From a virus: 21,096 nucleotides of DNA. The stretch spans positions 1-21,096 of the IMG/VR virus record IMGVR_UViG_3300026116_000108. One strand, written 5' to 3'. Below the pieces are notes generated by a model, which made no database searches, was not told the DNA's origin, and saw nothing but the letters and a program-made list of their open reading frames with translations. Made by a program: the position numbers and the translations under genes. Positions 7,030-21,096 of the stretch are shown here, piece by piece (the stretch's first letter is position 1; the number at the start of each line of letters is the position of its first letter).

Positions 7030-7575
7030 TTAGCTTTCATGAAGCGCGCATTCACAGTCCGGCGGCGCAACACCGTTGCTCCAGGTACCGGGATCACAGA
7101 AAGTCTTGGTGGTGGGGCTGCCGTCAAGGAGAGCCGGGCTACCGTTGGACGTGTGGTTGATCGTGTCGTACCCAACACAAGCAGAGTTGCTATTCCGAAC
7201 GTAAAAAACTCGGGCGGGCATCGCAGTGATTTGGTGAGCAGTAGCGTCTCCCGCAGGTTTGTCGAATACGAGGATGCGCAGTGGACTGATGCGTTGATCT
7301 TGCATCGTGCGTGTGTCCCACTCCAGAGTAGCGCTTGTGCCGTCGCCGGAGGGCGTGAAAGTGGCGAAGATAGGCGCGTAGTTGAATTGCGGGACGAGTT
7401 CAGCATTCCGAATACCTTTTCCTTCAATACGGAAAGTGACGACGCTCGAAAGGATGTCTCTTGCGGGACTTTCAACCAGGGTGGCGCAGAAGTCGGAAGC
7501 ACAGTAGTCAGTAGCTCCTGCGGAGCCGATTACGGAGGCGGTAGCTATAGCAGCAGCAATGATTTTGGGGGACAT
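7030..7575 (-). CDS. Secreted Ig-like protein encoded against the late genes
   Basis: The ATG at 7575 has GGAG at eight bases. It encodes a Sec-type signal peptide (MSPKIIAAAIATASVIGSAGA), with cleavage likely after AGA. The mature part has paired Cys near its N-terminus (YCASDFC), then an Ig-like domain (VVTFRIEGKGIRNAELVP... FATFTPSGDG... ISPLRILVFDKPAG). Cysteines follow near residues 137, 160 and in CEC (residues 175-177). The domain aligns along its length with the two Ig-like domains of the GH16 protein at 16127-18505. The antisense frame at 7000-7605 has no such support. It is the only clear leftward gene in the late half, so it probably has its own promoter and acts in the periplasm or outside. 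The role is unknown. Exclusion or adhesion is speculative. Confidence 0.85.
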   Translation of the reverse strand: MSPKIIAAAIATASVIGSAGATDYCASDFCATLVESPARDILSSVVTFRIEGKGIRNAELVPQFNYAPIFATFTPSGDGTSATLEWDTRTMQDQRISPLRILVFDKPAGDATAHQITAMPARVFYVRNSNSACVGYDTINHTSNGSPALLDGSPTTKTFCDPGTWSNGVAPPDCECALHES

Positions 7576-7661
7576 GATAGTTACTCCACAACGAACGATT
7601 TCTGATTTCATGTTTGCACGCGCCGCCATATTCGCTTTGTGCGAGCGCAAAAGGGGGTGCG

Positions 7662-8129
7662 ATGGGCGGAAGAAAAGCTAAATACACGACCCGCATTGCC
7701 AAGCGTATATGCGAGCACATCGCATTGGGTGCTACGCTGCATCAGGCGCTTGCCAAGGAGCCCTTAGGGCCTTCTGTGCCTATGTTTTGGCGTTGGCTGG
7801 ATGAGTATCCTGAGTTTCGGGAGATGTACGAGAGGGCGCGTGTGTTGCAGGCGGATTTGATGTGCGACACCATTATGGTGATGGCTGAGAACGTGTTGAA
7901 GCAACCGCGTTTTGCGGCGGCGTACAAGGTGGCGGCGGACATCCTGAAGTGGCAAGCGGAGATCAGAAATCCGGCGCGCTACGGCTCGAAGGTGACGGTA
8001 GAGCATAAGGCGACTCTAGACCCGGCGAAGATGAAGAAAGAGATCATGCAGCTTGAGAAAGAGCTTGGATTGCTGGGCATGGAGGAGCGAACGATTGATG
8101 CGGAGATAGTGGAGGCCAAGGGTGAGTAA
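7662..8129 (+). CDS. terS: Terminase small subunit (Sf6-like)
   Basis: This 155-residue protein is expected to recognise phage DNA and to bring it to the large terminase. The N-terminal half is the DNA-binding type: RIAKRICEHIALGATLHQAL, followed by an aromatic-rich segment (PMFWRWLDEYPEFREMYERA) that resembles the Sf6/P22-like small terminase. The helical C-terminal part ends with acidic residues. I chose the ATG at 7662, with GGGGG at four bases. The frame extends upstream to 7614 without a ribosome site. The gene overlaps the large-subunit start by 8 bp, the usual pairing. Confidence 0.9.
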   Translation: MGGRKAKYTTRIAKRICEHIALGATLHQALAKEPLGPSVPMFWRWLDEYPEFREMYERARVLQADLMCDTIMVMAENVLKQPRFAAAYKVAADILKWQAEIRNPARYGSKVTVEHKATLDPAKMKKEIMQLEKELGLLGMEERTIDAEIVEAKGE

Positions 8130-9570
8130 GAAGGACGAAGGTATTGACCACGCCCGGCTGGCAAAGCTTAAGCGCTTAAAGGAGTTGAAGCGCCACTACA
8201 GCATGTTTTTCTATAAGCCCTACCCTAAGCAGATGGAGTTCCATAGGGCGGGCGCATCCTTCCGTGAGCGCTTGTTTATGGCGGGCAACCGCTTGGGCAA
8301 GACCTACTCAGGAGGCTACGAGGTGGCTTACCACGTCACCGGCTTATACCCGGAATGGTGGGATGGCTACGTGTCGCACAAAGCGACACGTGGTTGGGTT
8401 GGCTCCGTGACCTCCGAACTTACGCGGGACGGCGCGCAGCGTATTTTGCTTGGCCCGGTTGGCCAGTGGGGCACGGGCTGCATTCCCAAGGAATGCATTG
8501 TCGATATCAAGCGGGCGCGTGGCGTCCCTGACGCCGTTGAGACAGTGCTGGTGCGGCACATGGCCTCCGGGGATATTTCGCAGATTACCTTCAAAGCGTA
8601 TTCGGACGGGCGGGAGTCATGGCAGGCGGAGGAGTTGGACTTCATTTGGATGGATGAGGAACCGCCGGAGGATATCTACATTGAAGGTATCACCAGAACG
8701 AATAACACCATGGGGCCGGTGTTTCTGACATTCACGCCGCTTATGGGTATGTCGGGCGTGGTCATGCGTTTCATAGGCGAGCAGCACCGTGACAGGCATG
8801 TCACGAACATGACCATTGACGATGTGGGCCACTATACGCCGGAGCAGAAGCGCATCATTATTGACGCATATCCCGAGCACGAGCGAGAGGCGCGTACCAA
8901 GGGCGTGCCGATGCTGGGGGAGGGGCGTATTTTCCCTGTGGCTGAGGAAGTTATTGTGGAATCTCCGCTTGCGGTGATTCCGAAGCATTGGAAGCAAATA
9001 GTGGGGCTTGATATTGGTTGGGATCACCCTACGGCGGCGGCGCGCTTGGTTATTGATCCAGATACCGATGTTGTGCATTTGGTGAATGAGTACCGGCAGC
9101 GCAAGGAGATTCCTATTGTGCATGCCTCTGCCATTAAGCCCTGGGGGCCGTGGATACCCGTAGCGTGGCCGCGCGACGCCCTGCAGCATGATAAGGGCGG
9201 CTCTTGCGAGCAGATTGCTAAGCAGTACCAGGACGCGGGCTTGCGCATGCTTTCCGAACCCGCAGGGTTCGGGGACAAGCGTGGTTATGGTGTGGAGGCA
9301 GGTATTGCGGAGATGCTTCAGCGGATGCGCACAGGGCGTTGGAAGGTGGATGTTAATTGCCGGTTGTGGCTGGAAGAGTTTCGCATGTATCACCGGAAGA
9401 AGGGAGCCGATGGCTCCCTGCAGGTGGTGAAGGAACGGGAAGACCTTATCTGCGCCAGCAGATATGCGACGATGATGTTGCGGTATGCATTACCGCAGGA
9501 ATGGGCACCTATCCCGCCGGATAGGTATTCGAGGATGTCGAGAGGTGGGGCCTCTTGGATGAGTGCTTAA
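8122..9570 (+). CDS. terL: Terminase large subunit (ATPase and nuclease)
   Basis: This is the 482-residue packaging motor, which pumps DNA into the capsid and cuts the concatemer. The N-terminal ATPase has Walker A GNRLGKT (55-61), Walker B LDFIWMDEE (about 172-180) and the coupling motif TFTPLMG (203-209). The C-terminal RNase H-fold nuclease has GLDIGWD (295-301), RD (351-352) and a late acidic motif at Asp441 (DLICASRYA). The length and motif layout match Sf6/P22-like large terminases. It starts at a GTG overlapping the small-terminase end. Confidence 0.95.
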   Translation: MSKKDEGIDHARLAKLKRLKELKRHYSMFFYKPYPKQMEFHRAGASFRERLFMAGNRLGKTYSGGYEVAYHVTGLYPEWWDGYVSHKATRGWVGSVTSELTRDGAQRILLGPVGQWGTGCIPKECIVDIKRARGVPDAVETVLVRHMASGDISQITFKAYSDGRESWQAEELDFIWMDEEPPEDIYIEGITRTNNTMGPVFLTFTPLMGMSGVVMRFIGEQHRDRHVTNMTIDDVGHYTPEQKRIIIDAYPEHEREARTKGVPMLGEGRIFPVAEEVIVESPLAVIPKHWKQIVGLDIGWDHPTAAARLVIDPDTDVVHLVNEYRQRKEIPIVHASAIKPWGPWIPVAWPRDALQHDKGGSCEQIAKQYQDAGLRMLSEPAGFGDKRGYGVEAGIAEMLQRMRTGRWKVDVNCRLWLEEFRMYHRKKGADGSLQVVKEREDLICASRYATMMLRYALPQEWAPIPPDRYSRMSRGGASWMSA

Positions 9571-9579
9571 AGGAGCAGC

Positions 9580-9876
9580 ATGGATCACAAAGTTAAAGCG
9601 AATTGGCGCAGGCTGGTTGACGGACAAGGCCGGAAAGTGCGGGCGTTGAACATCCACGTGCCGCAGGATCACCCCCAAGTGAAGCGGTACCCGTTGACGC
9701 ACCAGTATATGAAGGCGTTTTACCTGTCCACTTCTGCAGGAAGTATTAACAACTCGCGCAATTGGCGGCTAGATCAGTTCTTAGTGGTGGATACCGGCTC
9801 GAAAATTTCGGCGGTTGATAGACAAGTGGCGAATTTTTGGAAGTTAAACACATCAGCTAGTGCAGGAGCAGCTTAA
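9580..9876 (+). CDS. Hypothetical 98-residue protein between terminase and methyltransferase
   Basis: I do not recognise this protein. The ATG at 9580 has AGGAGC upstream. It is basic at the N-terminus (MDHKVKANWRRLVDGQGRK) and contains aromatic and Ser/Asn-rich stretches, ending in a Ser/Ala tail. It overlaps the methyltransferase start by one base (TAATG). Its position would fit a packaging or head accessory, or the first member of the modification cassette. Nothing in the sequence decides this. Confidence 0.7.
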   Translation: MDHKVKANWRRLVDGQGRKVRALNIHVPQDHPQVKRYPLTHQYMKAFYLSTSAGSINNSRNWRLDQFLVVDTGSKISAVDRQVANFWKLNTSASAGAA

Positions 9877-10613
9877 TGAATCTTGAGGAATACCAGCAAA
9901 TTCAGCCCCATGTAAAGGCCCATGGCTTGACTTGGCTTGTTCCGAACACGCATTGCGCGTGGCGCGTGGACTCGTTGATGGAAAAAGAGCCTGATACGGT
10001 GGCTTGGATCGAGAAAATGGGTGAAGGCGACGTGCTTTTCGATGTTGGCGCTAATATTGGTCAATATGCGATGTTGGCTGCAAAGAGAGGTGTTTTTGTG
10101 CATGCATTCGAGCCAGAAAGTCAAAATTTTGCGCTCTTGTGCCGCAATGTAGCCGTCAACGAATTGAACAAAAACCTGCGTGTTTGGCCTATTGCGCTGG
10201 CAGATCAGCCCGGATTGCACACGTTTTACGTGCAGTCGCTCATTCCGGGTAATTCCTGCAATACCTTAGGACAGAAGACCGACTACAACCTCAAACCCAA
10301 GGACAATTGGGGCTTCGAGCAAGGCTGCGGGGCCATGACGTTGGACTTTTTTGCGGATACTTTCGGCCCGCCGACGCATATCAAGCTGGACGTGGATGGC
10401 TTGGAGCATAAGGTGCTCCTGGGCGCGATTCGTCACATGAAAAACGTGAAAAGTGTGTTGGTGGAGACCAATTACAACCTCCCTGAACACCAGATTTTCG
10501 ACCTCTACATGCAGGAGCACGGGCTTTTTCCGGATGAGGAAACGGCGGAGAGGGCAAAGCGCACGGAAGGAGCGTTTAAGGACATTGGCAACCGCATTTA
10601 TTACAGAAAATGA
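9876..10613 (+). CDS. FkbM-family SAM-dependent methyltransferase
   Basis: This 245-residue enzyme is expected to transfer a methyl group from S-adenosylmethionine, often to a hydroxyl of a sugar or polyketide in this family. Motif I is FDVGANIGQ (55-63), with the ribose-binding acidic residue in HAFEPE (76-81). The later motif IKLDVDGLE (169-177) is typical of FkbM proteins, and a final strand carries VKSVLVETNYN. The phage substrate is unknown. It is the first enzyme of a tightly joined cassette with two 2OG/Fe(II) oxygenases. The stop overlaps the following start (ATGA). Nothing indicates a DNA methylase (no DPPY or PC motif). Confidence 0.9.
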   Translation: MNLEEYQQIQPHVKAHGLTWLVPNTHCAWRVDSLMEKEPDTVAWIEKMGEGDVLFDVGANIGQYAMLAAKRGVFVHAFEPESQNFALLCRNVAVNELNKNLRVWPIALADQPGLHTFYVQSLIPGNSCNTLGQKTDYNLKPKDNWGFEQGCGAMTLDFFADTFGPPTHIKLDVDGLEHKVLLGAIRHMKNVKSVLVETNYNLPEHQIFDLYMQEHGLFPDEETAERAKRTEGAFKDIGNRIYYRK

Positions 10614-11218
10614 CAAAGCGAAATCCTTGTGTTTGGGCCTCTCAGAACCCTCGCATTGCTCTCTTCACTAACTTTTTGTCGGATGAGGAGTGCAACTATC
10701 TGATTGAGCTATCTGAGCCGCGCATGATCCGCTCCACCGTTGTCGTAGACAATGATGAGCCTGACGCGGTGCATGATGGACGCACCTCAAGCGGCTGCTG
10801 TATCGAGCGAGGGGAGACGGCGCGCATCACCGCTATTGAGAGGCGGTTGGCGCAGCTAACCGGCACGCCTCTTGAGAATGGTGAAGGGCTGCAGGTGTTG
10901 CGGTATGAAGAAGGGCAACACTACTTGCCGCATCACGACTATTTCGACCCTGGCGTTGGCGGTTATATGAAGTACCTGGAGCGCGGCGGGCAGCGCACGC
11001 ACACGTGCATCATGTACCTGTCGGACGAGTTCGAGCAGGGGGAAACGGAGTTTCCACTTCTGAGGTGCGTTGTGCCTCCTCGCAAGGGTTCCGTACTGGT
11101 GTTTTGCAATATTACGCCTGAAGGTAGGTTAGATGAGCAAACTCTGCACGGCGGCAGGCCGCCGGTAGGTGGTGTGAAGTGGATTGCAACGAAGTGGATT
11201 AGACAGAGGGTTTTCTAA
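10610..11218 (+). CDS. Prolyl-4-hydroxylase-like 2OG/Fe(II) oxygenase
   Basis: This 202-residue enzyme belongs to the P4Hc type of 2-oxoglutarate/Fe(II) oxygenases, which hydroxylate proline or related residues. The iron ligands are H108-x-D110 (LPHHDYF) and the distal His180 (TLHGGRPP). Lys190 (VGGVKWIATKW) is positioned to bind 2-oxoglutarate. DGRTSSGC near residues 56-63 and VLRYEEGQHY (96-105) match the family. The length is usual for a stand-alone domain. It overlaps its neighbours on both sides by 1-4 bp. The substrate is unknown; polyproline tracts in the later surface proteins are candidates. Confidence 0.9.
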   Translation: MTKRNPCVWASQNPRIALFTNFLSDEECNYLIELSEPRMIRSTVVVDNDEPDAVHDGRTSSGCCIERGETARITAIERRLAQLTGTPLENGEGLQVLRYEEGQHYLPHHDYFDPGVGGYMKYLERGGQRTHTCIMYLSDEFEQGETEFPLLRCVVPPRKGSVLVFCNITPEGRLDEQTLHGGRPPVGGVKWIATKWIRQRVF

Positions 11219-11907
11219 TGAGCGATGTGAATGTTGAAGGGCATGTGCTGTATTCGTTGCGCAATGCGCGGGTTAATCCCTGGCCTTTTCCGCACTTTTA
11301 TGCGGAGAATGTCTTTCCGGACGAGACTTACTGGAAGATATACGACTACGTAAGCAAGAAGGGAGCGGAGGAGTACACACAAAGTAAGAACAACTACAAC
11401 GGGCGTCTTTTTGCCAAAGATACCGATGAAGACATTACGTTCTTGGGCCTGGATTTCTTGAAATCCGAGGACTTTTTGCGGCATGTGGTGAAGATTTTCC
11501 GTGACGAGTTTTCTATGCGGTTTACGGATTATACCCGCGTCAAATTAAGCAATGATCTGCGCTTGATTCGCGACGGCAGGGATTACTCGATTGGCCCGCA
11601 CACCGACGCGCCGCATAAGGTGGTGAGCATGTTGTTTTACCTGCCTTTAGATGGTTGGAACCACGACTGCGGCACAAGTATTTACCTGCCGAAGGATCGT
11701 AGCTTTCGCTGCGCGGGCGGCCCGCATCGTAAGTTCGAGGACTTCGACAAGATCTTCACAGCACCCTTCCTGCCGAATACTTGCTTAGGCTTTTTCAAGA
11801 CGGATTACAGCTTCCACGGGGTGGAGAAAATAGAAAAGGATTTTCAGCGGGACGTGCTTCTGTACAATGTTTATCATGGAAACATAAACTCTCTGTCATC
11901 TGAATAA
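11218..11907 (+). CDS. Second 2OG/Fe(II)-dependent oxygenase
   Basis: This 229-residue protein is a different 2OG/Fe(II) oxygenase, not a duplicate of its neighbour. The metal triad appears as H128-x-D130 (IGPHTDAPH) and His200 (SFHGVEK), with Arg211 (FQRDVLLYN) placed for 2-oxoglutarate. The strand after the HxD is VVSMLFYLPL, as in the double-stranded beta-helix fold. Similar enzymes are frequent in aquatic phages. Their substrates, which may be glycans, proteins or nucleic acid, are mostly unknown. The start overlaps the previous stop (TAATG). It ends 21 bp before the portal gene, which has its own strong ribosome site. Confidence 0.85.
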   Translation: MSDVNVEGHVLYSLRNARVNPWPFPHFYAENVFPDETYWKIYDYVSKKGAEEYTQSKNNYNGRLFAKDTDEDITFLGLDFLKSEDFLRHVVKIFRDEFSMRFTDYTRVKLSNDLRLIRDGRDYSIGPHTDAPHKVVSMLFYLPLDGWNHDCGTSIYLPKDRSFRCAGGPHRKFEDFDKIFTAPFLPNTCLGFFKTDYSFHGVEKIEKDFQRDVLLYNVYHGNINSLSSE

Positions 11908-11928
11908 ATAGCGCCGGGAGGGCGAATA

Positions 11929-14157
11929 ATGGCTAATAACGAGGACTTTATCGACCAAGCAAACCGACGCTTTCGCGCCGCGAATGACTTCTTAGCGTCC
12001 TGGCGCGCCGAAGCGCGGGACGATTTTGCGTTCGTGGCGGGGCAGCAGTGGACGCCGGAAGATGAAGCCATTCTGAATGAACAGCGTCGCCCTCCCATTA
12101 CCTTCAACTACAGCGAGAAGATGATCGACGCGGTGATTGGTGCGGAGGTCAGTAACAGGCAAGAAACCTCGTTTCTGCCGAGGGGCATTGAAGATGCGGG
12201 ATTGGCGGACTTATGGAATGCGGCGGCGAAGTACGTACGGGAGGAGTGTAATGCGGATGATGAAGAAAGCGATGCGTTTCGTGACGCGCTCATTTGCGGC
12301 ATTGGCTGGACCTGGACGCGTTTGGATTATGATCGCGATCTTGACGGCCTTGTGGATATATCTCGTATTGACCCCCTCGAAATGAGCTACGACCCGGCTG
12401 CAACTAAGCCGGGGCTTACTGACCGTCGATGGAATGACCGAGAATGGTGGGTGGACGACGAAGAGGTAAGGCGTCGGTGGCCGGATGCTATTCCATCGCA
12501 GGCAAGTGACGATCCTGGGCGCGGCGTGGTGCGGCGCGGCATGCGCTATGCGGATGACGACACTTCCGAGTTCGAGCGGCACGAAGGGCAATCCAAGATT
12601 CGCTTGCATGAGTATTGGCAGATGGAGGATGTCTATCGTGTGGCGGTGGGCGGGCAACTTCATGAGGTTGACAAGAAGACGCTTGCACAGATTAAGGAGC
12701 AGATGCCTGATGTGCAGTCCGCCAAGCAGAAGAAGCGTGTGTATTACCGCGCATGGTTCATGGGCGAGACACTGCTTCAGGGACCTGAAAGGTCCCCTAC
12801 GCAGAAGGGTTTCACCTTCAACCCTATCACTTGCAAGCGCGACCGCAACAAGGGGACGTGGTACGGATTAACCCGTGTGATGAAAGACCCGCAGCGTTGG
12901 GCCAACAAGTGGTTATCGCAGATTCTGCATATCATCAACACCAACGCCAAGGGCGGCATCTTGGTGGAGTTGGGCGCTGTGGTTGATCCCGAGCGCTTTA
13001 AAGAAGAGTGGGCACAGCCGGATAGCGTCTCGCTGCTGAATGAGGGCGCGCTGTCCCAGAAGAAGGTCATGCCCAAGCCTCCAGCCCCGTACCCGACTGG
13101 CTTGGACAAGCTAATGACCTTCGCGCTTGACTCCCTGCCAATGGTCACCGGCATCAACCTGGAGGCGCTTGGCCTTGCCAATAGGGATCAGGCCGGGGTT
13201 GTGGAAAGCCAGCGCAAACAGGCGGCATACGGCCTTCTTAGCCCAATGTTTAACGCGCTGCGCAACTATCGCAAGACGCAAGGGCGCGTGCTTTTGGACT
13301 TTATCCAAAACTATATTGCCGATGGGCGCTTGATTCGCATTGGCGGGCCGGAGTCACAGCAGTTCCTGCCGTTGACCAAGCAGGATGGCGCGGCCAATTA
13401 CGATGTCATTGTTGACCAGTCCCCGAATGCACCAGACACCAAGGACAAGACGTGGCAGGCCCTTGGAGACTTGATTCCGGCCATGTTGAAGGCGCAAGTT
13501 CCTGTGCCGCCTGACGTGCTGGATTACGCACCTATCCCGACTGCGTTAGCGGTTAAGTGGAAGCAATTCATTGGGCAGCAGATGCAGATGCAGCAGGAGA
13601 TGCAAGACCAGATGAATCAACTCCAAGAAGAAAACAACCAGCTCAAGAGCGACCAACAGGTCAAGATGCAGGAGATGGACTTGGAGCGCCAAAAGATGCA
13701 ACAAGAACTGCAGATAGAGTGGCAGCAGACGCAAGCCAAGATGAAGATGGAAGCGGATGCGCATGCGCAGAAGATGCAGTTGGAGCGCGCCAAAGCGCAG
13801 TCCCAATTCGAGTTGGAGTCCTTCAAACAGGATCGCCAATTCGAGCTGGAAGGGCGGCGTATGCAGCATGAAAACAATATGAAGCAGCAGCAAGTGGACA
13901 ATGACTTCAAGGTGAAGGCGTTTACAGCTGGCGTCAAAGCGGACGACGCTGGCAAGTTCCAAATTGACGTCAACACCGGCGAAATAGGCGACCTTGTGAA
14001 CCAGTTCGCACAAGCCTCCCAGCAAATGGCGCAGCAGGCGCAAGCCTCGCAACAAGCCACCTTGCAGGCTATTGCGCAGCTTACACAGGCGCTTACCAAG
14101 CCGCGCATGCTGCAATATGACCAGTCCGGCAGGCCAGTGGGGAGCACGGTGCAATGA
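11929..14157 (+). CDS. Portal protein, P22-like, with long Gln-rich coiled coil
   Basis: This 742-residue protein forms the dodecameric DNA gateway at one capsid vertex, where the terminase docks. The N-terminal half is of the P22-portal type, with an acidic DDEESDAFRDAL region, then GWTWTRLDYD and the DP-L-E-M-SYDP pattern. A long central region includes GTWYGLTRVMKDPQRWANK. From about residue 544 to 668 the protein is a long Gln/Met/Glu-rich coiled coil, like a P22 barrel. The extreme C-terminus reads QALTKPRMLQYDQSGRPVG. P22 portal has 725 residues, so the length fits. The ribosome site GGGAGGG precedes the ATG. The following gene overlaps by ATGA. Confidence 0.93.
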   Translation: MANNEDFIDQANRRFRAANDFLASWRAEARDDFAFVAGQQWTPEDEAILNEQRRPPITFNYSEKMIDAVIGAEVSNRQETSFLPRGIEDAGLADLWNAAAKYVREECNADDEESDAFRDALICGIGWTWTRLDYDRDLDGLVDISRIDPLEMSYDPAATKPGLTDRRWNDREWWVDDEEVRRRWPDAIPSQASDDPGRGVVRRGMRYADDDTSEFERHEGQSKIRLHEYWQMEDVYRVAVGGQLHEVDKKTLAQIKEQMPDVQSAKQKKRVYYRAWFMGETLLQGPERSPTQKGFTFNPITCKRDRNKGTWYGLTRVMKDPQRWANKWLSQILHIINTNAKGGILVELGAVVDPERFKEEWAQPDSVSLLNEGALSQKKVMPKPPAPYPTGLDKLMTFALDSLPMVTGINLEALGLANRDQAGVVESQRKQAAYGLLSPMFNALRNYRKTQGRVLLDFIQNYIADGRLIRIGGPESQQFLPLTKQDGAANYDVIVDQSPNAPDTKDKTWQALGDLIPAMLKAQVPVPPDVLDYAPIPTALAVKWKQFIGQQMQMQQEMQDQMNQLQEENNQLKSDQQVKMQEMDLERQKMQQELQIEWQQTQAKMKMEADAHAQKMQLERAKAQSQFELESFKQDRQFELEGRRMQHENNMKQQQVDNDFKVKAFTAGVKADDAGKFQIDVNTGEIGDLVNQFAQASQQMAQQAQASQQATLQAIAQLTQALTKPRMLQYDQSGRPVGSTVQ

Positions 14158-14390
14158 GCATCATGCAATCCACAAATGAGGTTCAGAGCAACCTCAAGCA
14201 AGCTATCCAGACGCTTCTGGAGTCTCAATACAACCTAATGCAAATTTCGCAACAAGGGAACACTGCGTTTGCGGCGGCGCTTTCGCAACTGGCGCAGGCC
14301 ATCACTGCGCCGCGCACCCTGATCAATGATGCCAACGGGAACCCTGTTGGCGTGTCTTATCAATCCACCCAAGGAAGTCAGAATGTCTGA
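14154..14390 (+). CDS. 78-residue protein that duplicates the portal C-terminal tail
   Basis: The gene starts at an ATGA overlap with the portal. Its last part reads QAITAPRTLINDANGNPVG, aligning with the portal end QALTKPRMLQYDQSGRPVG. Over the 29 aligned residues I count 15 identities. The N-terminal 40 residues are a helical Gln-rich stretch, again like the portal tail. It is therefore likely to be a duplicated and detached piece of the portal C-terminus, perhaps a plug, adaptor or assembly factor. The role is inferred. The stop overlaps the scaffold start. Confidence 0.75.
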   Translation: MSIMQSTNEVQSNLKQAIQTLLESQYNLMQISQQGNTAFAAALSQLAQAITAPRTLINDANGNPVGVSYQSTQGSQNV

Positions 14391-15270
14391 TGGTTTAACG
14401 CCTGATGAAATCAAGTTCTTCGAGACCGGCGACGCCTCCGTGTTGGGTTTATCGGGCGATGCTCCTGCCCCTGCCTCTGCACCTGTTGAATCGCCTGCGC
14501 CTAGCCCAGTACCTGAACCGGCACCGGCTCCTGCACCCCCTCCAGTAGAGGACACCCGAGCTCAGCAATTGGCGCAGGAACAAGCGTACCGTGCCCAATT
14601 GGAGGCGCAACTGCGGGCGATTAACGAGCGTCTGGAGCAAGCTACAAAGCCGCCCCCACCGCCGCCGAAGGTTGCGCCGGATCCTGCGCAAGACCCGTAC
14701 GGCCATCTGATGCACGAGATCAACAGCATCAAGGAAGCCTTGACCGGCATCAGCCAGCGCACGGAAGCCGAGCAGCAGCAGTACGCGCAGCAACAACAGT
14801 TCTTGGCGCTGAAAACCAAGGTGGAGACAGCGCGCAACGATTTCATGAAGAATACGCCGGACTTCCAAGAAGCCTATCAGCACCTGCGGAATGCTCGAGC
14901 GCAGGACTATCGGGACGTAGGAATTGCGGAGGAACGTATTCCCGAGGCGCTATTGACGGATGAGTTGGCGGTGTCGCAGAACGCGCTTAAGCAGGGCAAA
15001 AATCCTGCGGAGGTGGTCTATAACATGGCCAAGCGCTACGGCTACACACCGAAGGCGGCAGCGCCTGCTGCAGTTGACCCGGCTAAGCGCGTAGAGCAGA
15101 TTATTGCGGGCCAGAAGGCTGCGGACGTGCCGCCGCGGGGCGCGCCGACCGGCGAGATTACGCTTTCCTCGCTGAAGGATGCTTCGGAGGCGGATTTGAA
15201 CAAGGTGGCGCTGGACGACAAGCTGTGGAGCAAAATTGTCGGCGGCGGCAAAAACGACATCTTCGGGTAA
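14383..15270 (+). CDS. Head scaffolding protein (predicted)
   Basis: This 295-residue protein is acidic and Pro/Ala-rich at the N-terminus (SPAPSPVPEPAPAPAPPPVE), with a helical, Gln-rich middle and a PPPPPP stretch (TKPPPPPPKVAP). Its position after the portal, its low complexity and its predicted helical content are typical of scaffolding proteins that guide capsid assembly and then leave. The C-terminus (LWSKIVGGGKNDIFG) would be the coat-binding end by analogy. I chose the ATG at 14383, with AAGGAAG upstream, over the frame opening at 14326. No protease motif is seen. Confidence 0.75.
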   Translation: MSDGLTPDEIKFFETGDASVLGLSGDAPAPASAPVESPAPSPVPEPAPAPAPPPVEDTRAQQLAQEQAYRAQLEAQLRAINERLEQATKPPPPPPKVAPDPAQDPYGHLMHEINSIKEALTGISQRTEAEQQQYAQQQQFLALKTKVETARNDFMKNTPDFQEAYQHLRNARAQDYRDVGIAEERIPEALLTDELAVSQNALKQGKNPAEVVYNMAKRYGYTPKAAAPAAVDPAKRVEQIIAGQKAADVPPRGAPTGEITLSSLKDASEADLNKVALDDKLWSKIVGGGKNDIFG

Positions 15271-15273
15271 GCC

Positions 15274-15507
15274 ATGAATGATGACGTCAAAATTCGGATA
15301 CACATTACCAAAGGGAGCTTAGTACTTGCGGAACTACACTCAAGCGTGGACGGGGGCCGACACGAATTTCGGTTTGCGCAACCCATACAAGTTAAAGGAC
15401 GTCACTTTGACGGTTTCGCAGTCGAGTGCTACATCGACCAGGAGACAAGACATGTCTGTTACGACGACCGACCAGAGCGGAAGCTCGAACTCCCCTTTAC
15501 GCGCTGA
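15274..15507 (+). CDS. Hypothetical 77-residue protein after the scaffold
   Basis: The ATG lies three bases after the scaffold stop. The product is beta-like and charged (KIRIHITKGSLVLAELHSS... GRHEFRFAQPIQVKG), with two Cys near its end, and no recognised family. The ribosome site is weak. A competing frame (+1 phase, opening at TTG 15326) covers 15326-15451 with more GC-rich third positions, so which frame is used here is uncertain. A normal phage would carry its major capsid gene at this spot. Confidence 0.5.
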   Translation: MNDDVKIRIHITKGSLVLAELHSSVDGGRHEFRFAQPIQVKGRHFDGFAVECYIDQETRHVCYDDRPERKLELPFTR

Positions 15508-15667
15508 ATTGTCAGATTTGGCGCGCAAGGAGCTGCTGCGCGAGATTGCGGACTTGACCGGCGAGAAGTACACCGTAGAATGTCGATTGCAATGGATCAA
15601 CAATCGCGTGGATGAATTGAGGCAGCGGCTAGCTACCTCAAGGCGGCACGGCAATTCAAAGGGATAA
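15452..15667 (+). CDS. 71-residue protein with a basic coiled coil
   Basis: The ATG at 15452 has GGAGAC at a good distance. The product has a Thr/Ser-rich start (MSVTTTDQSGSSNSPL), then a charged helix with heptad character (DLARKELLREIADLTGEKY... NRVDELRQRLATSRR). The same frame is open upstream to 15326 but without a good start. It overlaps the end of the 77-residue gene by 56 bp. A structural or adaptor role is suggested by position only. I do not recognise it. Confidence 0.6.
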   Translation: MSVTTTDQSGSSNSPLRAELSDLARKELLREIADLTGEKYTVECRLQWINNRVDELRQRLATSRRHGNSKG

Positions 15668-15671
15668 GAAA

Positions 15672-16127
15672 ATGGCTTTTTTTGGCAACTCTGTGCAACC
15701 GGCTGCGCCCGGCACGACCAATGATGTTTTAACGCTCACGTCTGCCAATGGCCGTAAGCTTCGGCTGGTGGAGTTGTCAGTTTGCGGCCTCGGCACTTCC
15801 AGCGCCGCCAATGAGTTGGGGGTAAAGCGCCCGGGGCAACTTGGCTCCACGCCCACCAACCAAGCCAGTATCCCGTTAGACCCTGACTGCGGTTCTTGCA
15901 GCGCCACGGTGGCCACCGGGTGGACCACGCAGCCTTCCTTGGGCACGGTGGCTATGCTGCGCCTGGGCTGCAACAGCAACGGGGCGATTTATCGTTGGGT
16001 GGCTACGCCGGGCATGGAGATTACCTGCCGGGGCGATTCATTGACCACGCATGCGTGCCTTTCGTTCCGCTTCACTACTGGCGGCGCAGGGCCGATGGGC
16101 GTTCACATCGTCTTTGAGGAATTGTAA
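15672..16127 (+). CDS. Predicted virion structural protein, 151 residues
   Basis: A ribosome site (AAGGGATAAG) precedes the ATG. The protein is Gly/Thr/Ser-rich and probably all-beta, beginning MAFFGNSVQPAAPGTTNDVL. It contains KLRLVELSVCGLGTSSAANE, patterns familiar from phage decoration or fibre-like proteins, and has five Cys. It overlaps the GH16 protein start by one base (TAATG). It could be a head decoration, a head-tail adaptor or a tail-surface protein. I favour a surface protein because of its composition and its neighbours. Confidence 0.65.
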   Translation: MAFFGNSVQPAAPGTTNDVLTLTSANGRKLRLVELSVCGLGTSSAANELGVKRPGQLGSTPTNQASIPLDPDCGSCSATVATGWTTQPSLGTVAMLRLGCNSNGAIYRWVATPGMEITCRGDSLTTHACLSFRFTTGGAGPMGVHIVFEEL

Positions 16128-18505
16128 TGCCTATCATTGACCCGACCACGCCTTCGGGCGTGCAGCCGGTTGGCTTCGGCTCCGGCTTCACGCTCATTAT
16201 GTCCGATGAGTTTAACAGCACGGGACTCGATAACAAATGGAACAACGCACACGATTTTGGGAACTATGGTTCTACTAGCGCTTGGGACGTCAACAACAGC
16301 AACAATTCCTGCTTGCGCATGTGGTACAACGGCGCTGGAGGTGGCACGCCGTCTAACCAGATGTTTGGCTCCAACGGAGCCGCACGCGGTGGGCAGTCCT
16401 GGCGGGGCCGGTTTGGCTATTACGAGGCGCGCATTCAATGCATACGCGGGCGCGGCTTCTTCCCCGGCTTCTGGTTGTATCCGCTTTCCGACGGCAACGG
16501 CGAGAATGGCGACGGCAGCCAGCAAGAGATCGACATCGATGAGTGGTTTTCCTATGAAAATGGGGATTGGCTTGTTGATACCAGCGCCTTCCGTTGCAAG
16601 AACTCGTCCTTCACCATTTGGACAGAAGGCGGGGGCGGCAGCACTAACCAAGCAGGGCACTTAAGCTTCACCAACACACGTGGCTACGACACTACCGTCA
16701 GCACGCAATTCCACACGTATGCCATGTATTGGGCCTCCTCTGGCGGCCTGAAGTGGTACTACGATGGCAATCTCCTGGGCACCATTAACGACCCCTGGGG
16801 TGCTGGCAACAACATGCAACTGGTGTTGTTCCTGCAGCTTTGGTGGGGCCCTGGCGGAGGTAATCCTACGCCGGACGGCAACACACCGCAGGGTTCCAGC
16901 AATAGCATGATCTTTGATTATGTGCGGGTGTGGAGCATTGCGGGCTCTCCGAGTCCTGCGCCGCCTCCGCCACCGCCGCCGCCCTTTAGCGCATCGCTCA
17001 CTACTGCACCAACGGATGGCGCTACTATCAGCGGTACTGTCAACTTCCAAATCGACGGCCAAGGCATTAAGAATGCCGAGCTGCTGCCGGCGACTGGCTA
17101 CACGCCCAGCTACGGCACCTTCACGTTGTCCAACAACGGTGCGCACGGCGACTTCAACTGGAACACAACCAATGTCGCCAACGGGCCAATAAGCGTACGC
17201 ATCTCCGCGTTTGACCAAGCGGCAGGCGTATCGCCTGCCAATGAGATAGTGGCGATGGCGTCGCGTACCTACAACGTCAACAACTCGCCATCGTCACCAC
17301 CTCCGCCGCCACCACCTCCGGGAACGTTAGTTTGGCCGTACGGACGCAACAGTTCCGGCTTTGACAACATGACCTTCTACGACGAGTTCGATTCCGGCAC
17401 CACGCCGGATACCTCGCGGTGGACAAATCATTACTACTACGAGGCAAGCAACTCCACGGTCAACTATGACGTGAACGGCGGCTATCTGCGCATTTGGCCC
17501 AAGGTGGATGGCTCCAACAACTTTTTCAACCGTGTGTTCACGACAGAAAACTTCTTTACGCAGCAATATGGGTACTTCGAGGTACGCGCACAGTTGGATC
17601 ACGGCGATGGCTTACATCCGGTCATCGGCATTATTGGGAACAACAACAAAGATGTTGGGTACATGCATGCCTATGGGAACGCACCGTCCGGCGGTTGGAC
17701 TTCTGGCACGGCTGTCATCGATTATGCGTGCGCTGTTTTCGATATTCCCACACAGACCTTTAACTTCGACACTCGGCCCGGCACTGCTGCCCTTGGTGGA
17801 GCTAACTTAGCAAACAGCTTCCATTACTACGCATGTGAGTGGACACCCAACAATATCCGCTTCTTCTACGATGGCACGCAGGTAGAAGAGTGCGTAATTA
17901 GCGTCACCGGCCAGTTCTACCCCTATGTAGGGCTGGCGATGCAAACCAACGAGACTACGGCCAACACCACCGGCACGCCGCAAGGCACAGCCAATGCCAT
18001 GCTAGTAGATTATGTTCACGTTTGGACGCTGCATAACAACGCCAACTCTGTGCCCGGCACCTCTGCGCCAGCGCCGTTTGGTATCACGCAGGTAACTGCT
18101 CCGCCGGACGGCGCAAGCATTTCCGGGGTGGTGGCCTTCCGTGTAGAAGGCAACCTTTTGGCAAACGTGGAGCTGCTACCGGCAACTGGTTACACGCCTA
18201 TTTATGGGCAGTTTTCGCTTTCCTCAGGCAACACGGTGGCCGAGCTCAACTGGAGTTCTACTGCGGTGGCCAACGGAGCTATTCAGGTGCGCATCTCCGC
18301 GTTTGACCATAGCGCAGGGCAGGCAGCTAGTGAATTGGTTGCCATGCAGCCGCGCACCTACTACCTCAACAACACGGCAGCGCCTCCGGGGCCTGCTCCT
18401 ACACCTACGCCAGTACCGCCGCCTCCGCCAACAGATCGCGGGCTGCAATACCTTTATTCGGAACTCCTTGGCCGCTTGCCTTGGATTAGGCGCGGGCGGC
18501 GGTAA
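16127..18505 (+). CDS. GH16 tail enzyme with two GH16-fold domains (one without the catalytic motif) and Ig-like domains
   Basis: This 792-residue surface protein probably degrades or binds the host's polysaccharide coat. Residues 1-272 form a GH16 domain with the acid motif EIDIDE (134-139; Glu134 nucleophile and Glu139 acid/base by family rule) and the GFWLYP substrate strand. An Ig-like domain follows (about 292-385) after a polyproline linker. A second GH16-fold domain (about 400-640) keeps the YGYFEVRAQ and FHYYACEWTPNNIRFFYDG landmarks but has GNNNKDVGYMH where the acids should be, so it is probably non-catalytic. A second Ig-like domain (about 656-749) and a Pro-rich C-terminal segment complete it. 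The substrate (laminarin-, agar- or xyloglucan-like) cannot be told. Overlaps its upstream neighbour by TAATG. Confidence 0.9.
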   Translation: MPIIDPTTPSGVQPVGFGSGFTLIMSDEFNSTGLDNKWNNAHDFGNYGSTSAWDVNNSNNSCLRMWYNGAGGGTPSNQMFGSNGAARGGQSWRGRFGYYEARIQCIRGRGFFPGFWLYPLSDGNGENGDGSQQEIDIDEWFSYENGDWLVDTSAFRCKNSSFTIWTEGGGGSTNQAGHLSFTNTRGYDTTVSTQFHTYAMYWASSGGLKWYYDGNLLGTINDPWGAGNNMQLVLFLQLWWGPGGGNPTPDGNTPQGSSNSMIFDYVRVWSIAGSPSPAPPPPPPPPFSASLTTAPTDGATISGTVNFQIDGQGIKNAELLPATGYTPSYGTFTLSNNGAHGDFNWNTTNVANGPISVRISAFDQAAGVSPANEIVAMASRTYNVNNSPSSPPPPPPPPGTLVWPYGRNSSGFDNMTFYDEFDSGTTPDTSRWTNHYYYEASNSTVNYDVNGGYLRIWPKVDGSNNFFNRVFTTENFFTQQYGYFEVRAQLDHGDGLHPVIGIIGNNNKDVGYMHAYGNAPSGGWTSGTAVIDYACAVFDIPTQTFNFDTRPGTAALGGANLANSFHYYACEWTPNNIRFFYDGTQVEECVISVTGQFYPYVGLAMQTNETTANTTGTPQGTANAMLVDYVHVWTLHNNANSVPGTSAPAPFGITQVTAPPDGASISGVVAFRVEGNLLANVELLPATGYTPIYGQFSLSSGNTVAELNWSSTAVANGAIQVRISAFDHSAGQAASELVAMQPRTYYLNNTAAPPGPAPTPTPVPPPPPTDRGLQYLYSELLGRLPWIRRGRR
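17078..17217 (+). repeat. First copy of intragenic Ig-domain repeat
   Basis: Bases 17078-17106 match 18170-18198 at 26 of 29 positions, and the 20-base block CGCATCTCCGCGTTTGACCA (17198-17217) recurs exactly at 18290-18309. The two Ig-like domains are a fairly recent internal duplication. Confidence 0.7.
18170..18309 (+). repeat. Second copy of intragenic Ig-domain repeat
   Basis: Partner of 17078-17217; see there for the exact match. The spacing between copies is about 1.09 kb, so recombination between them would delete the second GH16-fold domain in frame. Confidence 0.7.
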
Positions 18506-21096
18506 GTGGGCGTAGTAAAGGACGCCACCAGTAGCCTAAACACCGGCAGCAGCGGTACCAGTCAAAGCTGGTCGCATACATGCTCCGGCAGCAATCGCTA
18601 TTTGCTGGTGGCGGTGTCCACCAATGGCGGCGGCAGCGACGTTACCGGCGTCACCTACGCCGGAGTGGCGCTGTCCGCGTTGGGTTCGCAGCAAGAGTCC
18701 GACACAGGTTATCGCATCTCCATGTGGGGCCTTGCAGGCCCCGCCAGCGGTACCAATACCATCACGGTATCGTGGAATGAGTCGCATGCCGTAGAGTGCT
18801 GCGCCATCAGCTTCACGAACGTGAGCCAGTCCGCACCTACCGGCACGATCGCGTTGGCGCAAACGCAAAGCGCGGTCAGCATTTCCAAGACCTTGGGCAC
18901 CTTCACGAACGGCCAATTCATCGTGGATGCCGTGGCATGGAACCAGGGCGCGTTGCCTGCGAATGAGTCCACCGGGCCGCAGCAAACGTTTCGTGTAGGC
19001 GGTTCTGGCAGCTTTGCGCGCTGCGTTATCAGTACGGAGTCGGGCAGCGCCACCATTACGATGTCGCACGGCTTCAACACCTCTACAAATGCGGCTTTAG
19101 CCTGCATGCCGTTGCAATCCGCCGACTCCCCAAGTCCCCCGCCTCCGCCGCCGTCCTCAGGCAGCGTAAGTGTGGATACCACCAGCACAATTAATACAGG
19201 CGGTTCTGGTACGGCTATCTCATGGACGCATACCTGTACCGGCGCGAATGGCTACCTGTTGGTGGGTGTGGGCGTCAACGGTGGCGGAAGCGATGTAGTG
19301 AGTGTGGAGTATGCAGGTTCTCCCATGTCTCTGTTGGCGGGTAAGCAGGAAGGCCCCACCGGGTACCGGGCTTCCTTGTGGGGTAAAGCCGGGCCTGCTA
19401 GCGGCGTGAACGTGGTGGTGGCGAAGTTCGCGGAATCTCATGCTATCGAGATCAAAGCAATTAGCTTTGCGGGCGTTGACCAAAGCACGCCAACGGCGCG
19501 TGCGTACTCTGCAGAGACTGCTGCTGCATCCATTGGGCGAAGCATCTCCAGCTACGCCACCAACAGCAAGATCGTTGATTTTGTGGTGTGGAACCAATCC
19601 TCTACGCCTGGCACGGAGTCAGTGGGGCCGCAGCAAACGAAGCGAGGCGGCGCGGCCGCCGGGGCATTCACACGCGCAGCGATGTCCACGGAGTCCGGCA
19701 GCGCGGATATAGCCATGACCTGGGGCTTCAACGCGGCGGTGAATTTGGCTTATGTGGGCATAGCTATCCAGCCCGCTAGTGTATCTTCTCCTCCGCCTCC
19801 GCCACCACCGCCTGCTTCGTTTGGTGCTCCTGTATTCGACAGCTTCACGCAGGTGCAGAACTCGGCGGTAGGTACGGCAATTACGGTCAACACGCCAACT
19901 ACGTACAACGCGGGCGACCTTTTTATAGCCGTCATCAACTTCGCGTCGGCCTCGGAAACCATCAACTCAGTTCCGGGTGGATGGACTTCCATCCGTACGG
20001 TGGCGCAAGGCACTGCGAACGACATTACCTGTGCCTCGTACTACCACTACGCTTCCGCCGCGGAAGCCTCCAGCTATACATGGCACATGACCGGCACCGG
20101 CGTGCAGAACAACGGCATTATTGCGCGCATCACCGGCGCAAGATCGGTTTCTGCGGTTGACACAAGCAGCGGGCAAGGGGGATTTGGCGCTGGTGCATCT
20201 GCGCCTGCCGTAACAACCAGCGTCAACAATGAGCTTCTTATCTATGCTTTTGCGCTGCGCAGTAGCGCAGGTGGCCTTACGTTTAATCAGCCTGTTGGCA
20301 CAAACGTTAATTGGTTGTTGGCTTCCTCCGGCGTGTGTAATGCGTGGGGCGCGTCCAAGTCGCAAACAGGCGCGGGCGCGTCTACCAACAACGAGGCGGT
20401 GTTGGCAAACGCAGGTACCACCGATCCGTGGGCCGCCCAGCTTATTGCCATCAAGCCGCCTGACGTGTCGATCGACCCGCGCCAGCCTGGGATGGAGCAG
20501 TTTCCGCTTCCGCAGAACTTCTACACCCAACGCAATTGGCCGATGGTTTTTTGCGGGTGGCTGCAAAAAGACCCTACTCCTACGGTATTAACTCCCATCC
20601 CACCAACGGCGTTGAGCGGCTTGCCGGATATTTTCTACCGTAGGCGCGTTGCCAAGTACTGGCAGCAGGACTTTGTGCAACCTGTTGTCGGGCCGGATAA
20701 TCCGTTTGCGCCTCCGCCTCCGCCGCCACCTGCACCGCCCCCGCCGCCAGCTCCGCCACCTGGCGGAGGCTCCGGCGTAACCGACGAAATCCTACCGCGT
20801 ATCTCCTTGCCGCCGCAGCAGTTGGCGGACGACGCGCAGTGGAAGCGGCAAGCGGCAGCGTGGATGGCTGAAGCCAACAAAGGTCACCTACAGAACACTG
20901 GCGTGATTACCTTGGCGGCCAACCAAAATACAACAGTGGTGTTGGATGACAGAGCCGGGCCTACCTCTATGATTGAGTTCATGCCGCGCACGGCAAACGC
21001 AGCGGCGGAGTTCGGTAACGGTACAATGTTCGTCGCCTTTCAAGACAACGGGCGCTTCGACATCACTCATAGCAACGACGCAAGCACAGATCGCAC
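18506..21096 (+). CDS. Large tail-fibre-like protein (C-terminus cut by window edge)
   Basis: The frame is open for 863 codons from the GTG after the GH16 stop to the window end. There are three related beta-rich domains (about 3-205, 221-424 and 440-650); the first two share SWSHTC/SWTHTC, YLLV, GGGSDV and GPQQT. They are joined by polyproline linkers (209-216, 429-436, 736-752). After a segment rich in Pro and aromatics, the C-terminus (QWKRQAAAWMAEANKGHLQN... MPRTANAAAEF... FDITHSNDASTDR) matches the end module of many phage tail or fibre proteins, probably a few residues before its natural stop. It is expected to be a host-facing virion protein. The GTG start has no good ribosome site and may depend on reinitiation or stop readthrough. 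Confidence 0.85.
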   Translation, partial: MGVVKDATSSLNTGSSGTSQSWSHTCSGSNRYLLVAVSTNGGGSDVTGVTYAGVALSALGSQQESDTGYRISMWGLAGPASGTNTITVSWNESHAVECCAISFTNVSQSAPTGTIALAQTQSAVSISKTLGTFTNGQFIVDAVAWNQGALPANESTGPQQTFRVGGSGSFARCVISTESGSATITMSHGFNTSTNAALACMPLQSADSPSPPPPPPSSGSVSVDTTSTINTGGSGTAISWTHTCTGANGYLLVGVGVNGGGSDVVSVEYAGSPMSLLAGKQEGPTGYRASLWGKAGPASGVNVVVAKFAESHAIEIKAISFAGVDQSTPTARAYSAETAAASIGRSISSYATNSKIVDFVVWNQSSTPGTESVGPQQTKRGGAAAGAFTRAAMSTESGSADIAMTWGFNAAVNLAYVGIAIQPASVSSPPPPPPPPASFGAPVFDSFTQVQNSAVGTAITVNTPTTYNAGDLFIAVINFASASETINSVPGGWTSIRTVAQGTANDITCASYYHYASAAEASSYTWHMTGTGVQNNGIIARITGARSVSAVDTSSGQGGFGAGASAPAVTTSVNNELLIYAFALRSSAGGLTFNQPVGTNVNWLLASSGVCNAWGASKSQTGAGASTNNEAVLANAGTTDPWAAQLIAIKPPDVSIDPRQPGMEQFPLPQNFYTQRNWPMVFCGWLQKDPTPTVLTPIPPTALSGLPDIFYRRRVAKYWQQDFVQPVVGPDNPFAPPPPPPPAPPPPPAPPPGGGSGVTDEILPRISLPPQQLADDAQWKRQAAAWMAEANKGHLQNTGVITLAANQNTTVVLDDRAGPTSMIEFMPRTANAAAEFGNGTMFVAFQDNGRFDITHSNDASTDR

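Follow-up and report, generated by a model that had tools for sequence, protein, structure and literature searches.

Locus organization and the prolyl 4-hydroxylase

The window analysed here is a stretch of 21,096 nucleotides from a podovirus (IMG/VR record IMGVR_UViG_3300026116_000108), in which we found a gene for a putative prolyl 4-hydroxylase (P4H), accompanied by genes for three proteins with polyproline runs: a scaffold-like protein, a GH16 protein and a fibre-like protein (Table 1).

Table 1. Features of the window, with residue numbers referring to the encoded proteins
Feature	Position	Strand	Basis
Terminase large subunit (TerL)	8122..9570	+	Pfam
FkbM-family methyltransferase, conserved neighbour of OX2	9876..10613	+	PF05050, TIGR01444
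P4H, 202 aa, algal/collagen type (predicted)	10610..11218	+	Pfam, PDB sequence search, alignment, tree, AF2, Foldseek
OX2, second 2-oxoglutarate (2OG)-Fe(II) oxygenase (predicted), 229 aa, conserved in podovirus clade	11218..11907	+	Conserved residues, AF2, Foldseek
P22-like portal	11929..14157	+	PF16510 (1.1e-102)
Scaffold-like protein, Pro-rich N-terminal region and P6 run	14326..15270	+	Run search; homologue in ctDrO704
P6 run of scaffold-like protein, residues 109-114	14650..14667	+	Run search
GH16 protein, two GH16 stretches and two Ig-like domains with Pro-rich linkers between	16127..18505	+	
P8 run of GH16 protein, residues 279-286, after GSPSPA, within GSPSPAPPPPPPPP linker	16961..16984	+	
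P8 run of GH16 protein, residues 391-398, after SPSS, within SPSSPPPPPPPP linker	17297..17320	+	
C-terminal AAPPGPAPTPTPVPPPPP tract of GH16 protein	18377..18430	+	
Fibre-like protein, at least 863 aa, open reading frame (ORF) exceeding the window end	18506..21096	+	phrog_553 tail match, tandem domains, C-terminal homology
P6 linker of fibre-like protein, residues 211-216, between tandem domains	19136..19153	+	
P8 linker of fibre-like protein, residues 429-436, after second domain	19790..19813	+	
P7-A-P5-A-P3 tract of fibre-like protein, residues 736-752, before conserved C-terminal domain	20711..20761	+	

The P4H ORF matches the Pfam family 2OG-FeII_Oxy_3 (6.5e-15), and its solved homologues in a PDB sequence search were, in order, P4H-1 of Chlamydomonas reinhardtii (Cr-P4H-1; 4e-45), the P4H of Bacillus anthracis (1e-36) and human collagen P4H. 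No PHD or PPHD sequence matched at an E value of ≤0.001, and identity to these proteins at the fold level was 16 to 17%. The first Foldseek match of the AF2 model (pLDDT 87) was the complex of the algal enzyme with (Ser-Pro)5 (3gze; 6e-22, 43% identity), whereas the dedicated Pseudomonas hydroxylase of elongation factor Tu (EF-Tu) ranked 35th (4iw3; 4.6e-9, 17% identity), which places the fold nearer to the group of collagen-type and hydroxyproline-rich glycoprotein (HRGP)-type enzymes than to the PHD/EF-Tu group. Alignment with Cr-P4H-1 revealed the HxD...H iron triad (H108, D110, and H180) and the 2OG-binding lysine (K190) of collagen/HRGP-type P4Hs, as well as equivalents (Y99 and Y105) of the algal Tyr134 and Tyr140, the latter of which touches the target proline (PMC9676403). 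Both proteins agree at all key residues examined, catalytic and substrate loop residues included, and a tree places the window enzyme near Cr-P4H-1, in a region where the branching order is not firm. The P4H-like oxygenase of the original prediction is thus upheld, and both sequence and modelled fold indicate a genuine P4H of algal/collagen type, with predicted activity. In a set of 398 Pseudomonadota genomes, 49 contain a P4H of this type, with identities of up to 49%, so a bacterial origin of the captured gene is probable.

Polyproline linkers

The six polyproline linkers that had been proposed in the GH16 and fibre-like proteins, and the PPPPPP run of the scaffold-like protein, are all present, with runs of P6 to P8, so that the genome coding for the P4H also codes for a polyproline/SP-type candidate substrate. 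The scaffold-like protein additionally contains PAPAPAPPP at residues 65 to 73, residues 751 to 768 of the GH16 protein read AAPPGPAPTPTP-V-PPPPP, and examples of linker peptides are GSPSPAPPPPPPPPFS and NNSPSSPPPPPPPPGT. In both large proteins the runs lie at the borders between folded, duplicated domains (51% identity between fibre residues 6 to 204 and 217 to 425; 55% between the two Ig-like domains of the GH16 protein). As synonymous codons are mixed within the runs (CCG/CCT/CCA/CCC), they are not the product of one-codon slippage, and within-protein shuffling recreated them in 0 of 2000 trials for both large proteins and in 2 of 2000 for the scaffold-like protein. Among 120 quasi-random viral loci (1.08 Mb), 5 contained runs of at least six prolines, none above 10 residues, and 13 contained looser Pro-rich stretches (at least 10 P in 24), so the runs of the window are unusual but not unique.

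We consider the proteins bearing linkers to be putative surface or virion proteins on the grounds of gene position, the match of fibre residues 7 to 198 to one PHROG tail family (phrog_553), and the match of the fibre C terminus to small structural-region proteins. A homology search found no phage relatives of the GH16 protein. Elsewhere in the window, a minus-strand ORF (7030-7650) shares 40% identity with the Ig-like domains of the GH16 protein and overlaps the terminase small subunit at its start.

The runs could also be passive, rigid interdomain spacers, which modular glycoside hydrolases and fibres often contain, with the P4H acting elsewhere. Their exact placement between folded domains fits this explanation, as do the loosely Pro-rich stretches of the random loci and the fact that most polyproline-bearing viral contigs have no P4H. 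However, long runs were rare in the same loci, the relatives of the phage that have no P4H have no runs either, and another lineage couples a P4H to very long Pro tails (both described below). We therefore regard simple spacers as unlikely, although as a serious possibility.

FkbM, OX2, and the podovirus clade

OX2 has no Pfam match, but its residues H128-x-D130...H200 and R211 are invariant among relatives and its AF2 model (pLDDT 87) matches PasI/PolD/OGFOD1 in Foldseek, so that, judging from conserved residues and predicted fold, it is a second 2OG oxygenase of the window, absent from the original prediction. Searches with OX2 and the terminase gathered 11 relatives, several of them fragments, that belong to a clade of P22-like podoviruses. 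In this clade FkbM and OX2 are conserved as a pair, encoded between terminase and portal (window 9876-11907; L314-L321, L324, L326, and L038 in our numbering of loci). The whole TerL-FkbM-OX2-portal core is common to L314-L316, L318-L321, L324, L326, and the complete 44.4-kb genome of ctDrO704 (L038, MW202512.1), and L317 shows the core up to OX2. The OX2 gene of ctDrO704 (L038 7250-7993) is not annotated in MW202512.1, the only nearby ORF being the 96-base sercA1a, just upstream of the OX2 start. L314 carries an insertion between FkbM and OX2, a gene (7496-9181) for a possible spike protein of 561 aa with an PAPVPAPVPAPTPAPAPTPTPSP linker.

In the fetched DNA of the 11 relatives, a profile search found no P4H and the called ORFs contained no run of at least five prolines. 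A homologue of the scaffold-like protein was seen without the run in six relatives, and in ctDrO704 it stands at the same place with no polyproline. Among the sampled clade members, only the window phage has P4H and polyproline together, and, because all 11 relatives are without both, the two appear jointly on the window branch.

Neither FkbM nor OX2 tracks polyproline among the relatives. The suggestion that FkbM could further modify the linkers is therefore unsupported, as the pair is conserved in phages having neither P4H nor polyproline runs. The packing of the three genes into one run between terminase and portal could still mean that P4H, OX2, and FkbM jointly modify some other virion component (portal, capsid, or spike side chains), the polyproline being coincidental. 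But FkbM-OX2 is kept without P4H in every relative sampled, so the P4H seems to be an add-on to this pair, and we find such a joint role very improbable.

A second lineage with P4H and proline tails

A P4H scan of IMG/VR yielded ten loci (L005, L006, L011, L014-L017, L019, L020, and L023) from Xanthomonas-type contractile-tailed (pro)phages, a lineage unrelated to the window podovirus; X. albilineans, Xanthomonas sp. GPE 39, and two metagenome-assembled genomes joined it through additional scans. The ten loci code for a contractile-tail baseplate and for a protein with a tail-fibre-like N terminus, which ends in 51 to 92 residues of polyPro/(Thr-Pro)n in place of its body. In every locus whose contig extends far enough the gene order is baseplate J, fibre with Pro tail, a 199-aa protein, a 338-aa PP-loop protein, a 108-aa protein, a 236-aa cupin, P4H, and DUF5675, with the P4H 3 to 6 kb downstream of the Pro-tailed protein. 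The P4H (42 to 45% identical) is under purifying selection (dN/dS, 0.09 to 0.16). The fibre-like polyPro protein of this lineage has 164 to 182 aa, and up to 83 consecutive prolines occur in it (the ten loci plus L055 and L056). Two homologous Xanthomonadaceae prophages with ordinary fibre bodies (42% identical baseplate J) had no such cassette in the fetched 20 kb, and the genomes of both carry a P4H elsewhere.

Distribution of P4H and polyproline in viruses and bacteria

The original prediction would be refuted by relatives that keep the enzyme without any polyproline linkers, and this is partly what we found. Several observations count against hydroxylation of the linkers by the phage P4H. 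Across viruses the enzyme is not bound to polyproline, because other P4H-bearing records, spanning 45 to 261 kb, contain none: L018 (52 kb), L007 (45 kb), Erwinia Y3, Salmonella Sen-NF, and Microcystis Mel-JY01, the last three with divergent P4Hs (29 to 32% identical). Conversely, among 36 viral contigs with true runs of at least 13 prolines, one has a 2OG match, which is weak and partial (41 residues), against 0 of 50 random records; polyproline was rejected as a general predictor of P4H. Of the roughly 14 viral P4H lineages that we grouped on the P4H tree, two have runs of at least six prolines, a frequency not above the background of 5 in 120 (P about 0.11), and around 20 bacterial P4H genes we saw no excess of Pro-rich neighbours over background. 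Within the clade, L314 has an (AP/TP)n linker and no P4H, and in the window itself the P4H lies between terminase and portal, away from the linker proteins.

The P4H phages without polyproline need another target, and a host protein such as EF-Tu, modified to adjust host physiology, could be one. The B. anthracis P4H structure 5v7y, of the same fold and with EF-Tu modification in its title, is among the top fold matches. Nevertheless, the dedicated EF-Tu hydroxylase is remote compared with the algal P4H, and a host target leaves the branch-specific gain together with polyproline without a reason, so we consider this explanation improbable.

In one bacterial type I secretion operon (L385 7283-17999), the P4H lies between TolC and an 883-aa protein with EPSPPP repeats and an EPSPPPGEPSPPPDEP stretch, a hint from cellular genomes in favour of linker hydroxylation; this pairing, seen in 1 of 20 bacterial loci, is not a general rule. 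Some other associations were discarded. The Pro-rich neighbour of the P4H in L386 is the unrelated tail region of RNase E. L018 is not a third polyproline lineage, since its 15 DNA pattern matches are poly-Gly on the other strand, as are those of L321; tail-region proteins of L308/L309 (the record of L018) and of L321 (15938-16945) are rich in GGGGGG, which mimics polyproline in other-strand DNA pattern searches. Collagen-like GXY repeats were dropped as a P4H substrate, as none occurred in the loci fetched by that stage. In Sen-NF and Y3 (L310 5095-6618; L311 4784-6579) an asparagine-synthase-like gene lies immediately ahead of the one for the divergent P4H-like oxygenase; the PP-loop protein of the Xanthomonas-type lineage is not a homologue of the Y3 synthase, as the PP-loop motif alone matches.

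Proposed self-hydroxylation of the linkers

Hydroxylation of the phage's own polyproline linkers by its P4H appears to be the best single explanation, and we judge its chances to be evenly balanced. Frequency by itself is not enough; most of the weight is carried by the joint gain within the clade and by the conserved cassette of the separate lineage with huge Pro tails, so the proposed link between enzyme and linkers gains support without being proven. An active P4H made during infection would use Fe(II), O2, and 2OG in the cytoplasm to hydroxylate prolines of the GH16, fibre, and perhaps scaffold linkers, either ahead of assembly or while it proceeds. The linkers would adopt the extended polyproline-II form, hydroxyproline would favour a stiff rod of this type, and the hydroxyl group would be open to further decoration, for instance with a sugar. 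A glycosyltransferase was not identified among the window proteins scanned, a set without the small ORFs and from an incomplete genome.

It is plausible that some phages build hydroxyproline-rich arms. More tentatively, and with slightly less than an even chance in our estimation, at least two unrelated phage groups may build hydroxyproline-rich, extensin-like virion elements made by a phage P4H, as linkers in the window phage and as the distal polyPro/(Thr-Pro)n rod of the Xanthomonas-type fibre, perhaps decorated by the PP-loop and cupin proteins. If so, proline hydroxylation of the plant and algal style would shape the receptor-facing arms of phages, and the hydroxyproline could bear sugars, for which algal mastigonemes are a precedent (PMC11015965). 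The Xanthomonas-type prophages are the sharper model system, with enzyme and proline tail in one conserved cassette.

Comparison with known systems

A 2012 paper described bacteria and viruses as being without the prolyl hydroxylases that collagen requires (PMC3368898), and a survey of viral auxiliary genes terms the viral use of P4H cryptic (PMC9301287); the window phage supplies a concrete candidate substrate. The proposed system had been presented as not known in phages, and we likewise found no report of a phage P4H acting on fibres or its own linkers in the open-access literature. The 2OG-Fe(II) oxygenases common in phages (PHROG 61, cyanophages) are of the same superfamily but mostly give partial matches of 24 to 38%. 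Chlorella virus PBCV-1 is a cited precedent, since 4-hydroxyproline is reported in its proteins together with peptide substrates of the viral P4H (Eriksson 1999, as cited in PMC9301287); this enzyme (vCPH, 5c5t) is also virus encoded, but belongs to a giant algal virus and is 27 to 29% identical to the window enzyme (Foldseek). The lysyl hydroxylase/glucosyltransferase L230 of mimivirus acts on the virus's own structural repeats, as shown in particles (PMC9614988), although it modifies lysine in collagen repeats, has an unrelated domain layout, and comes from a eukaryotic giant virus. Both cases show viruses to be capable of hydroxylating repeats of their own.

Among cellular enzymes, the B. 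anthracis P4H (3itq, 5hv0) is a bacterial member of the same family and hydroxylates (PPG)n peptides in vitro (PMC8968730), but it is chromosomal and its substrates are collagen-like or EF-Tu rather than polyproline linkers. The closest likeness is to Cr-P4H-1 (2jig, 3gze), which acts on hydroxyproline-rich wall glycoproteins in the eukaryotic secretory pathway, alongside hydroxyproline glycosyltransferases, and in these respects differs from the window enzyme. The two share 46 to 47% identity, the fold, and the active-site residues, and the crystal substrate (Ser-Pro)5 of the algal enzyme resembles the SP-rich starts of the window linkers.

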